A stretch of 64,000 bases of DNA from positions 1-64,000 of the forward strand of contig RDXX01000012.1 in the NCBI GenBank assembly GCA_004292955.1, in the 5' to 3' direction. This stretch comes from Oscillatoriales cyanobacterium. GTDB taxonomy: Bacteria > Cyanobacteriota > Cyanobacteriia > Cyanobacteriales > Microcoleaceae. The notes below the pieces were generated by a model. The model searched no databases. It saw only the letters and a program-made list of their open reading frames with translations, and was not told the origin of the DNA. This document shows positions 39,095-47,120 of the stretch, piece by piece (the first letter of the stretch is position 1; the number at the start of each line of letters is the position of its first letter). The translations under genes were made by a program, and so were the position numbers.

Positions 39095-40129
39095 TTATTT
39101 CAACATCAAAGCAACTTCCTTGGCAAAATAAGTCAAAATCAAATCGGCACCAGCCCGTTTGATACTCGTCAAAGTCTCCAAAATAATCCGTTTTTCATCA
39201 ATCCAACCCAACTTTCCAGCAGCTTTGATCATTGCATATTCGCCACTGACATTATAAGCAGCAACAGGTAAATTAGTTGCTTCCCGCACTTGGCAGATAA
39301 TATCGAGATAAGCCAAAGCAGGTTTTACCATCACAATATCTGCACCTTCTGCGATATCCAAAGCAACTTCTTTCAGCGCTTCTTTAGCATTAGCAGCATC
39401 CATTTGATAAGTCTTTTTGTCTCCAAATTTGGGGGCAGAATCGAGGGCATCCCGAAACGGGCCATAATAAGCAGAGGCATATTTTGCGGAATAAGCCAAA
39501 ATTGCTGTATCGATGTATCCTGCGGCATCTAAGGCTTTGCGAATTGCACCAATTCTGCCGTCCATCATGTCGGAAGGTGCGACCATATCTGCACCAGCGG
39601 CGGCTTGAGAAACTGCCATTTTTACTAACACTTCAACAGTCGGATCGTTGAGAATTTTACCGCTTTCATCAACTAAACCATCGTGTCCGTGTGATGTGAA
39701 AGGGTCGAGGGCTACGTCGGTAATTACTACTATTTCGGGGATGTTTTGTTTAATGGCTTTGACTGTTTGTTGAACCAATCCTTCTGGATTATAGCTTTCA
39801 GTTCCGGTGTCGTCTTTTTTGGTTTCTGAGATTACTGGGAAAAGGGCGATCGCACATATCCCCAAATTCCAACATTCGGCGATTTCTGTTAGCAATAAAT
39901 CCAGGGAAAAGCGATAACAACCAGGCATCGAAGCAATCTCAACTTTTTGCCCTTCTCCTTCCATCACAAACATCGGATAGATGAGATCGTCAACTGTCAG
40001 ATGATTTTCCCGTACCATGCGACGCAAACCGGGGGTGCGACGCAGGCGGCGGGGACGAATGGCGATCGGGGAGGGATTTTGATTATTCTCGGTGGGAAGG
40101 GCGGACTCGACGTTATTTGCGGATGACAT
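39095..40129 (-). CDS. hemB: Delta-aminolevulinic acid dehydratase (porphobilinogen synthase), aspartate/Mg type
   Basis: 344 residues. It condenses two 5-aminolevulinates to porphobilinogen for haem, chlorophyll and bilins. The Schiff-base lysines are Lys216 ([16 protein letters not shown]) and Lys269 ([11 protein letters not shown]). The metal-loop reads [14 protein letters not shown] (138-151): where zinc enzymes have three cysteines, here Ala140, Asp142 and Asp150 occur, as in the Mg-dependent type of plants and some bacteria. A Zur-box-like palindrome sits 23 bp before the ATG, which would put a zinc-independent enzyme under zinc control. Confidence 0.95.
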
Positions 40130-40151
40130 AGGAACTGGAGTTTATAGAGAA

Positions 40152-40166
40152 TGATAATCATTATTA
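40152..40166. promoter_or_regulatory. Zur-box-like operator before hemB
   Basis: TGATAATCATTATTA matches the cyanobacterial Zur-box pattern TGATAATNATTATCA at 13 of 15 positions and lies in the wider palindrome AATGATAATCATT. Fur boxes look similar, so the metal is assigned from the gene content of the region. Confidence 0.65.
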
Positions 40167-40203
40167 TCGCAGTTCCGTCACCCAAATCTATATTTATTAG
40201 GAA

Positions 40204-45509: not shown

Positions 45510-46325
45510 CTATCTCTCACAAACATGAGTTGGATCGTCAGCTCTTTCGGCATATTCCAAACCTCTAGCCAAACGCCAAGCAAAAATCGGCGGCAAACCT
45601 TTTTCAATAATTGCAGCGCAAGTAGTTTGATAGTCATATTCCACTTCTCGCAATATCACCTGTTGCGCGTCAACATCATAAATCACATAGGTAGCATTCG
45701 GTCTACCGTGGCGCGGTTCTCCTACAGAACCAACATTCACAATCCGCTTTAAAGGAGCAGTAAAACTTAAATCTTTATCTACTTCAATGCTCGGCCCGCT
45801 GACTCTAACCTGCATATTTCCAGCATCTAAAGTACGGACATATGGTACATGAGTGTGACCGCAAAACAGCACATCAGCACCCGCAGAAAATACCCGCTCT
45901 AAGGCAGAAAAAGCATCCATTGTCGGCAGTAAATATTCATGATTGCTGTGAGGGCTACCGTGAACAAAACACATATTGTCTTCTCGCAGACTGTGTGGCA
46001 AAGTGGCTAAATATTCTCGCGTTTCTGGGAAGATTTGATTGTTAGTCCATTCGTGAGCTAATTTGCCTCTTTTTTCGGCTAAAACTGAGGGATAGCTACA
46101 TTCGCAGGAGTTCAAACCTTCGACAATATCTTCATCCCAACAGCCGACGCAAGTGGGAATGTCGAGCGATCGAATCATTTCTACTACGGCGTGGGGATTG
46201 GGGCCGTAGCCGACTAAATCTCCGAGACAAAAGATTTTGTCGGCTTGTTGTTCGTCAATATCTGATAAAACTGCATTTAAGGCTTCATAGTTGCCATGAA
46301 TGCAGGACATAACTGCTATTTTCAT
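45510..46325 (-). CDS. Metallophosphoesterase (calcineurin-like, YfcE-type)
   Basis: 271 residues from the ATG at 46325. This start overlaps the stop of the upstream gene as ATGA, so the open-frame extension to 46403 is not used. Motifs: SCIHGNYEAL (the usual Asp of SDIHGN is Cys8), GDLVGYGPNP, GCWDED in place of GNHD, FVHGSPHS and GHTHVPY. The loss of the first Asp suggests altered metal use, but the His ligands are retained. It is translationally coupled to the P-loop protein and thus shares its Zur-box-controlled promoter. Confidence 0.88.
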   Translation of the reverse strand: MKIAVMSCIHGNYEALNAVLSDIDEQQADKIFCLGDLVGYGPNPHAVVEMIRSLDIPTCVGCWDEDIVEGLNSCECSYPSVLAEKRGKLAHEWTNNQIFPETREYLATLPHSLREDNMCFVHGSPHSNHEYLLPTMDAFSALERVFSAGADVLFCGHTHVPYVRTLDAGNMQVRVSGPSIEVDKDLSFTAPLKRIVNVGSVGEPRHGRPNATYVIYDVDAQQVILREVEYDYQTTCAAIIEKGLPPIFAWRLARGLEYAERADDPTHVCER

Positions 46326-47098
46326 TCTGTTTCTTCTCCTAATGAAAGTGATTCTTTGACTTGTTGTTGGTAATTCAACATGATTGTTTCCGACAGACAG
46401 CAATCTTCTAGGGTTTGTCCTAATGCTGTTTCATCGAGATTTTCGCCGACTATTTCTATGCCGCTAAATCTTTGGGGACGGCCTTCGAGCCAGCGGGGAA
46501 GTGGCAATTCTTCGTGGGCAGTTTCTTGGAATTTCGCGGCGAAGTCGAAGTAGAAAGAACGCCCATCGGCTATGTCAAAAATGCCTTTGGCTCGGTGGAT
46601 TTTGCCGTAGGCTCCTTGGGTCATTTCTTCGTACCAAAACAGATCGAGGCTGGCTGGATCGAGGACTTGTCCGCTGGCGGGGCTGCGCCAAATTGATAGT
46701 TTTTCCGGTTCGCCGCTAACGGCTATGCCCTCTACAATTACATCCGCCCATTGATGCCATTCGGTGTTTTTGATGTCTGGTGGTACGACAGCGAATCGGC
46801 GACTGGGGAAGCTTTGAAGCAGGTTTTCTATTGATGTTAATTGTAGGTAAAATCCCAGTTCAATGTAAGCTGAAACGCCGTTGTTTAGGTGTTTCGCGAA
46901 CTCGGATTCTTGGCCGTCTGTCAGGATGGTGATTTGGGGGAATTCGGCGACGATGCAGGTTTGGTCGATCGGCACATTGCCGGTTCCGGGACACCAATAC
47001 AGTACGGGTGCTGTCTCGACGGCTATCTGCTGTCGAATCCAGGTTGTTTTGCCACTTCCGGGCGGGCCCGCTACGGCGGTGATTGTAGGTTGACTCAT
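46322..47098 (-). CDS. Divergent COG0523/CobW-like P-loop protein
   Basis: 258 residues from the ATG at 47098. ITAVAGPPGSGKTTWIRQQI is a Walker A in CobW position, VAEFPQITILTDGQ follows, and a CobW_C-like domain (GAYGKIHRAKGIFDIADGRS, with RWLEGRPQRFSGIEIVGENL) ends the chain. The CxCC motif of COG0523 chaperones and the NKTD motif are not found. It is likely a non-canonical relative whose role in zinc handling is inferred from its operon and the Zur-like site. The open frame extends to 47125, but that would run through the operator, so 47098 is chosen. Leaderless or short-leader translation is possible. Confidence 0.8.
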   Translation of the reverse strand: MSQPTITAVAGPPGSGKTTWIRQQIAVETAPVLYWCPGTGNVPIDQTCIVAEFPQITILTDGQESEFAKHLNNGVSAYIELGFYLQLTSIENLLQSFPSRRFAVVPPDIKNTEWHQWADVIVEGIAVSGEPEKLSIWRSPASGQVLDPASLDLFWYEEMTQGAYGKIHRAKGIFDIADGRSFYFDFAAKFQETAHEELPLPRWLEGRPQRFSGIEIVGENLDETALGQTLEDCCLSETIMLNYQQQVKESLSLGEETE

Positions 47099-47105
47099 AA
47101 TACAA

Positions 47106-47120
47106 TGATAATCGTTCTCA
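47106..47120. promoter_or_regulatory. Zur-box-like operator before the P-loop/metallophosphoesterase operon
   Basis: TGATAATCGTTCTCA matches TGATAATNATTATCA at 12-13 of 15 positions and lies 7 bp before the start codon at 47098. Confidence 0.6.

Follow-up and report, generated by a model that had tools for sequence, protein, structure and literature searches.

A predicted zinc-starvation island under Zur control in a filamentous cyanobacterium, with an aspartate-type HemB and an altered phosphoesterase triad

Introduction

Why does a cyanobacterium keep a second gene for porphobilinogen synthase (HemB), a GTP cyclohydrolase gene, a COG0523 GTPase gene and a P-loop/phosphoesterase operon side by side, with palindromes of one kind among them? 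The question is raised by positions 39095 to 47120 of a stretch of 64,000 nucleotides (nt), hereafter the window, at the start of contig RDXX01000012.1 of an Oscillatoriales cyanobacterium (GCA_004292955.1, an assembly of 7.29 Mb in 163 contigs). The first-pass annotation, made from the letters alone, had placed palindromes before hemB, the COG0523 gene and the operon, with folE among them, and had read the whole as a response that saves or reallocates zinc. Every item of that description was recovered at or very near its original place, including the three palindromes and folE between them (Table 1). Our answer is that the island is very probably a Zur-repressed zinc-starvation island, combining a swap of HemB enzymes, delivery of zinc by the COG0523 protein and a third operon. 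Its gene content, ligand residues, boxes and their conservation, together with a rule linking the hemB box to hemB redundancy, are read from the DNA and set out below.

An aspartate-type HemB whose box follows hemB redundancy

The genome gave two HemB matches. The window copy (HemB2), which has a box in front of its gene, reads A/D/D at the three positions where the other, boxless copy at C92 reads C/C/C (DTCLCEYTSHGHCG). The Asp/Ala replacement of the zinc cysteines had been described correctly, and the Cys-type hemB that had been proposed for a search elsewhere in the genome is present. The best solved relative of HemB2 is 1w1z, and the stretch DVALDPFT is common to HemB2, 1w1z and 1b4k. With the three zinc cysteines absent and Asp at two of their positions, HemB2 should be zinc-independent.

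HemB was searched in 195 genomes of the same order (threshold E 1e-100); 189 matched, 69 of them with two matches. Complete Asp-type proteins scored E ≤2.5e-147 and those taken as Cys-type from 5.5e-128 up among the matches listed, the two score classes being well apart; two partial Asp-type hemB genes (4.2e-144 and 3.0e-128) were left out. Upstream DNA was read for 13 Cys-type and 118 Asp-type genes, the latter, read in sets of 30 and 88, coming from 67 genomes with two hemB genes and 51 with a single one. On re-reading the ligands all 118 Asp-type genes gave A/D/D and all 13 Cys-type genes C/C/C. The second copy was read directly as Cys-type in 12 two-hemB genomes (11 among the 67; the twelfth, G166, was left out of the 67) and assigned from its score in the rest. 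The box was defined as the best match to the pattern TGAKAAYNRTTMTCA in the 300 nt preceding the conserved anchor at the N terminus.

A box with at most two mismatches precedes the Asp-type gene in 60/67 two-hemB genomes and in 4/51 Asp-only genomes, and none of the 13 Cys-type genes has one; with at most one mismatch the figures for the Asp-type gene are 52/67 versus 1/51. The reversed pattern, used as a control, reached two mismatches or fewer in 1/117 rows of one set and 0/14 of the other. Within the window's own family, four two-hemB genomes have the box and six Asp-only genomes lack it. Taken together, these counts suggest that the box before the Asp-type hemB follows hemB redundancy, a pattern that fits a zinc-sparing swap. 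Zur sites as such do not appear to have been lost from Asp-only genomes, since these keep the box of the P-loop gene: among 20 of them the P-loop gene has a box in 15 (within ~350 nt, one at 311 nt) and hemB in 2. A P-loop match was present in 31 Asp-only genomes, of which these 20 were taken, three more were read separately and eight were left out. Further Asp-only P-loop genes have a box with one mismatch (G126) or with none, 323 nt away (G054); in G153 no box stands directly before the P-loop gene and one precedes the preceding FAD gene. In G166, which belongs to the genus of the window, the island looks to be decaying: at C4 the hemB2 and P-loop matches are no more than partial, and an internal stop interrupts that of the P-loop gene.

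As the presence of a Zur-type box on the zinc-free HemB tracks the retention of a second, zinc-type enzyme, part of the metal economy of a cell becomes readable from the genome. The island thereby offers a comparative argument for zinc sparing within a phylum of photosynthetic organisms.

The palindromes and their probable regulator

The looser pattern of the first-pass annotation, with up to three mismatches, has 11 matches in the window against 4.00 expected, a number reached by 0/100 shuffles; at hemB three of these matches overlap each other. The tighter TGAKAAYNRTTMTCA, with at most one mismatch, has 3 matches against 0.16 expected (0/100 shuffles reach 3), an enrichment that is partly circular as the pattern was fitted to these very sites. 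In the near relatives aligned, the hemB2 box is kept in 6/6 rows, corresponding to 4 distinct relatives, and the P-loop box (one mismatch or fewer) in 13/13 rows, corresponding to 10; in either set one row is the window itself, and one row of the hemB set and two of the P-loop set are duplicate loci. For the COG0523 box the same arrangement is seen in L211, on the map of that locus. Two weaker candidates were discarded. One, in front of the CRP gene at 44500, is not kept in near relatives, some of which have a promoter-like TTGACA there, and the other, with three mismatches at 42240 before folE, lies in a conserved upstream stretch that misfits the motif.

The genome has five perfect places for TGAKAAYNRTTMTCA: two in the window, two inside open frames and one before a transporter-like gene. 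The last, the palindrome TGATAATAGTTATCA at C146 (15030-16094), lies 112 nt before a gene which we take to code for a CbiM-like metal transporter.

Four proteins of the FUR family are encoded in the genome. The best solved relative of the one at C43 is 7ne9, also of the FUR family and presumably the zinc sensor of a marine Synechococcus, and the second is a chain named zinc uptake regulation protein FurB. Among the scanned island loci of other cyanobacteria, 8/82 contain a FUR gene closest to the C43 protein, with values of 49-58% for that protein and of 22-39% for the three remaining ones; L214 and L254, both among the eight, are apparently a single contig. In L214 and L223 this gene is divergent from hemB2 and a perfect box is shared between them. 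Synteny and solved relatives thus point to a Zur-like C43 protein.

Elsewhere in the same genome, a box with one mismatch (TAAGAATCGTTCTCA) lies between znuA and the divergent gene of an ATP-binding cassette (ABC) transporter ATPase, followed by a membrane-protein gene; from their sequences we read the two genes opposite znuA as znuCB. Besides znuA, the divergent ABC genes and the box that they share, this second zinc locus, L030 (C40, 3626-10739), has genes for a TenA-like and a WD40 protein and another two COG0523 genes with CxCC.

Two other places are recorded for completeness. A heavy-metal P-type ATPase at C19 (7474-9724, L034), for which zinc/cadmium-type models outscore copper ones, has TGATAATCATTCTAA ~23 nt before its start and is possibly a Zur-activated or otherwise metal-controlled exporter. 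At C135 (2350-2850, L044) a regulator gene, which we assume to be Rrf2-like, has TTAGAATCATTCTCA 16 nt before its start.

FolE and the COG0523 protein

The island FolE belongs to the GTP_cyclohydroI/TIGR00063 family and not to FolE2 (COG1469). Residues C102, H104/H105 and C173 (window numbering), which we take to be the positions of the zinc ligands of E. coli FolE, are invariant in 10 aligned FolE rows. The genome has a second folE at C23 (66% to the window copy), and both copies keep these residues. Since the zinc ligands are kept, the island enzyme is not the zinc-free FolE2, and a zinc-sparing role for folE is ruled out. The presence of folE in the island was correctly noted, with the correction that it encodes an ordinary zinc-type GTP cyclohydrolase I. 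Of the proposal that the island saves or reallocates zinc, saving is supported for HemB only, and reallocation fits the COG0523 protein and FolE.

The COG0523 protein has the features of a metallochaperone, namely a cobW NTPase domain, CxCC, CobW_C and a His-rich stretch. In several relatives the genes for COG0523, FolE and the P-loop protein lie close together and in the same direction. Most simply, FolE would remain dependent on zinc and be served by the COG0523 protein.

The P-loop protein and the two phosphoesterases

The third box stands before three genes, for a P-loop protein and two phosphoesterase-like proteins, MPE1 and MPE2. Island loci were fetched with the P-loop profile and the best 80 of 189 confirmed stretches were named; in 74/80 of these the P-loop gene is followed downstream, on its own strand, by MPE1 and MPE2, with no other recognised island gene in between but possibly with other frames. 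The P-loop protein has the Walker A motif GxxGxGK[TS] in 80/80 loci, CxCC in 0/80 and [NT]KxD in 3/80, so that it lacks the CxCC and NKxD of COG0523 metallochaperones, and CobW_C is its sole Pfam score. Its best match is the COG0523 GTPase YjiA, with E 0.01 by sequence and E 8e-7 by fold, where the template modelling score (TM-score) is only 0.33. The P-loop assignment of the first-pass annotation stands, with the refinement that the protein is itself a divergent CobW_C protein.

MPE1 is a calcineurin-like phosphoesterase by profile (PF12850, PF00149). It aligns with 3rqz and SapH, and the fold match agrees with the sequence search; the structure model behind it is weak (mean predicted local distance difference test score, pLDDT, 68.9) and served for fold assignment only. 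The canonical D-x-H and G-N-H/C metal-site motifs are missing from MPE1. The first-motif Asp of 3rqz is replaced by Cys (SC[IL]H in 77/78 homologues by pattern, in the 78th by eye), as is the third-motif Asn (GCWD in 78/78), while HGSP and GHTH are kept in 78/78. The Asp and Asn replaced here are metal ligands in the family. MPE2 gave no Pfam or NCBIfam match, and comparison by hhalign with the MPE1 profile (probability 99.8%, E 4.7e-29) identifies it as a paralogue of MPE1, in whose family the motifs are replaced by SGIEGN/TGIEGN-type, GWWE and GRS sequences in nearly all of 75 homologues. A genome search for a further paralogue that MPE1 might replace returned only MPE2 (31%) and one weak partial match (23%).

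These features point to the triad as a part of the bacterial zinc response for which we found no assigned function. A tentative idea, which we consider rather doubtful, is that the third box controls a three-protein machine acting in zinc starvation, made of a CxCC-less COG0523-derived NTPase, a phosphoesterase whose metal site changed from Asp/Asn to Cys/Cys and a ligand-less partner paralogue. Such a machine might, for example, clear a nucleotide signal resembling ZTP (5-aminoimidazole-4-carboxamide ribonucleoside triphosphate) or Ap4A (diadenosine tetraphosphate) that tunes the neighbouring COG0523 chaperone, or it might handle zinc. The altered metal site of MPE1 makes the triad directly testable.

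Gene order and neighbouring genes

The genes are read on the minus strand, from right to left, as P-loop, MPE1, MPE2, CRP family, His-rich COG0523, folE, FAD oxidoreductase and hemB (Table 1). Tychonema and Microcoleus records are the nearest named relatives of the window P-loop gene. The oxidoreductase has a homologue in 28/80 named loci and is a recurrent member of the island; the CRP/FNR-family regulator, with a homologue in 5/80, is likely a bystander. Beside the island, the window encodes at 35829-38611 a protein that adjoins a response-regulator gene and is presumably a CHASE2-type sensor with a histidine-kinase-like end.

Table 1. Features of the island, with positions counted from the first letter of the window
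Feature	Position	Strand	Basis
hemB2, Asp-type porphobilinogen synthase, A/D/D for the three zinc cysteines	39095..40129	-	Pfam ALAD 5.4e-150
Zur-type box TGATAATCATTATTA, ~22 nt before hemB2	40152..40166	.	kept in 4/4 distinct near relatives aligned
FAD/NAD(P)-binding oxidoreductase	40204..41433	-	NAD_binding_9 and Lys_Orn_oxgnase among four Pfam families
folE-II, GTP cyclohydrolase I, zinc ligands intact	41577..42227	-	TIGR00063, GTP_cyclohydroI
His-rich COG0523 GTPase with CxCC	42550..43605	-	PF02492 and CobW_C; GCICC and His-rich stretch
Zur-type box TGATAATCATTCTCA, ~150 nt before the COG0523 gene	43756..43770	.	0 mismatches to TGAKAAYNRTTMTCA
CRP/FNR-family regulator	43875..44444	-	HTH_Crp_2
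MPE2, degenerate phosphoesterase paralogue, own motif TGIEGN	44541..45272	-	hhalign to MPE1 profile
MPE1, metallophosphoesterase, two usual ligand positions taken by Cys (SCIHGN, GCWD), HGSP and GHTH kept	45510..46325	-	PF12850 3.6e-22, PF00149
P-loop NTPase, divergent COG0523 type, Walker A, CobW_C, no CxCC	46325..47098	-	CobW_C 8.2e-6
Zur-type box TGATAATCGTTCTCA, 7 nt from the P-loop start codon, at the head of the P-loop/MPE1/MPE2 operon	47106..47120	.	0 mismatches to TGAKAAYNRTTMTCA

Weighing the evidence

Several observations weigh against the reading of the locus as a Zur-controlled zinc-starvation island. Across the genome, TGAKAAYNRTTMTCA with at most one mismatch occurs at 29 places versus 23 for the reversed control; the motif alone is unspecific, so the evidence rests on position and conservation. 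No convincing box of its own was found before folE, the best having three mismatches at 42240. The best NCBIfam profile of the C43 protein is a ferric-uptake model (1.5e-21, below the cut-off), with 8.9e-9 for the E. coli-type Zur model. The hemB rule has its exceptions, 7/67 two-hemB genomes being without a box and 4/51 Asp-only genomes having one; in G015, one of the seven, hemB lies directly behind the triad and may be co-transcribed with it. Owing to the kinship among the genomes, the raw Fisher value for the rule was not used as evidence. On the HemB tree the changes are few, 8 in redundancy and 7 in the box, and tests that take kinship into account gave mixed results. A correlated-evolution test of Pagel type, run on one HemB gene tree built with a quick method, gave twice the log-likelihood difference (2dlnL) as 26.9; the highest value among 51 simulations under independence was 8.5. 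The stricter independent-pairs test could draw on only 4 supported pairs. At the two-mismatch cut no more than 2 of them agreed and none opposed, which is not significant, and at the one-mismatch cut 1 was opposing in some pairings.

The metal to which the boxes answer may be disputed, for the palindrome motif resembles the classical Fur box. Were the palindromes Fur boxes, the cluster would respond to iron starvation, and three of the four FUR proteins, that of C43 included, indeed score best against ferric-uptake models, all of them below the cut-off. Zinc and Zur are favoured over iron and Fur by the box that znuA shares with the ABC genes opposite it, by the C43-like FUR genes inside related islands (the 8/82 loci above) and by data from strain PCC 7002, where deletion of zur and treatment with TPEN (N,N,N',N'-tetrakis(2-pyridylmethyl)ethylenediamine) raise hemB-II, folE-II, G0131 and G0132, the genes named for the fur mutant being iron genes (PMC4628125). 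The zinc reading of the first-pass annotation is upheld by these three lines, and we regard the iron explanation as very improbable. Hardly credible, in turn, is the view that an Asp-type HemB is no more than what cyanobacteria normally use, and that it lies near a box incidentally. The 51 genomes with readable upstream DNA that by our search carry the Asp-type hemB only do speak for it, but the genome of the window and 66 others possess a second copy, and it is in those that the Asp copy is so regularly boxed.

The P-loop/phosphoesterase operon could also be a zinc-independent housekeeping unit that came to lie beside a Zur box by chance. The case for this comes from PCC 7002, which lives with a damaged triad and in whose zur mutant two further genes of the cluster, one of them (G0129) annotated as a phosphoesterase, were not raised (PMC4628125), a result that likewise counts against zinc control of the whole island. 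From gene order and the descriptions in that paper we matched G0129-G0131 to the triad frames, G0131 being the truncated P-loop gene; since the triad is damaged there, the two uninduced genes neither prove nor disprove zinc control of an intact one. G0131 itself, on this match, is among the genes raised in the zur mutant (PMC4628125), and the box stands directly before the P-loop gene in 10/10 distinct near relatives and 15/20 Asp-only genomes. A chance neighbourhood is on balance unlikely.

For the zinc-starvation island we therefore propose the following sequence of events, in which the binding of Zur, the induction, the metals of the enzymes and the transfer of zinc to FolE are inferred. 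Zinc-loaded Zur on the three palindromes would keep the island genes off, and these would come on as zinc falls. HemB2 would take over tetrapyrrole synthesis from the Cys-type HemB1 and, as it lacks the zinc cysteines, the pathway would no longer need zinc. The His-rich COG0523 GTPase would most likely pass scarce zinc to clients such as the zinc-dependent FolE-II, and the third operon would provide the CxCC-less COG0523-like NTPase and the phosphoesterase pair.

Comparison with known systems

A close parallel is Synechococcus/Picosynechococcus sp. PCC 7002, whose Zur regulon also has a zinc ABC transporter (PMC4628125). As in the window, an Asp-type hemB, folE, P-loop and FAD genes lie together, with boxes in front of hemB and in the interval from the FAD gene to the P-loop gene; the gene annotated there as FAD/NAD(P)-binding is likened to the window oxidoreductase by annotation only. 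In its current record the PCC 7002 cluster differs in lying on plasmid pAQ7, in its cut P-loop gene, in having MPE1 not annotated and MPE2 as a remnant, and in the lack of an annotated COG0523 gene within the 14.5 kb read; a gene of 236 residues there shows none of the MPE1 motifs. In Picosynechococcus PCC 7117 the P-loop position is occupied by a gene, and two phosphoesterase genes of full length are annotated.

In Anabaena sp. PCC 7120 the Zur regulon includes hemB2, folE2, thrS2 and three COG0523 genes (tabulated in PMC6103462). Zur control of hemB2, folE2 and COG0523 is thus the same, here as a prediction, whereas no thrS is found among the genes of the window island. Plasmid A of Trichormus variabilis ATCC 29413 (L336), which is typed conjugative, has a zinc island with boxes before hemB and thrS, where zinc ABC transporter genes, hemB (A/D/D), thrS, DUF1636, a GTP-binding protein, hisI, the P-loop gene, MPE1 and MPE2 occur. 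Neither the four Anabaena gene names nor hemB or phosphoesterase were found in the text of PMC12282138, and PMC12058595 treats Zur boxes in other bacteria, with no hemB in the passage concerned.

Outside the cyanobacteria, HemB2 of Pseudomonas putida, a copy without the zinc cysteines behind a predicted Zur site (Haas 2009, PMC2770081), is alike in HemB type and Zur site and comes from another phylum. The pairing of a zinc-limitation COG0523 GTPase with a zinc-dependent FolE recalls ZagA, which serves such a FolE in Bacillus subtilis (Chandrangsu 2019, as cited in PMC13339975); in the window the client relation is drawn only from adjacency. As to the triad, the asymmetric Ap4A hydrolase SapH/Spr1479 (3qfm) and 3rqz are sequence and fold relatives of MPE1, 3rqz sharing HGSP and GHTH, and MPE1 departs from both by its Cys in place of Asp and Asn in the usual metal-site motifs.

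In the titles and opening lines of abstracts covered, no literature was found on the triad or on the hemB rule, which is weak evidence for its absence, and the Anabaena Zur-regulon paper (Napolitano 2012) may hold part of it. An island of this kind has already been published as the Zur regulon of PCC 7002. The hemB redundancy rule is new here, and together with the phosphoesterase triad, with its Cys for Asp and Asn, it may be what a specialist would not expect.

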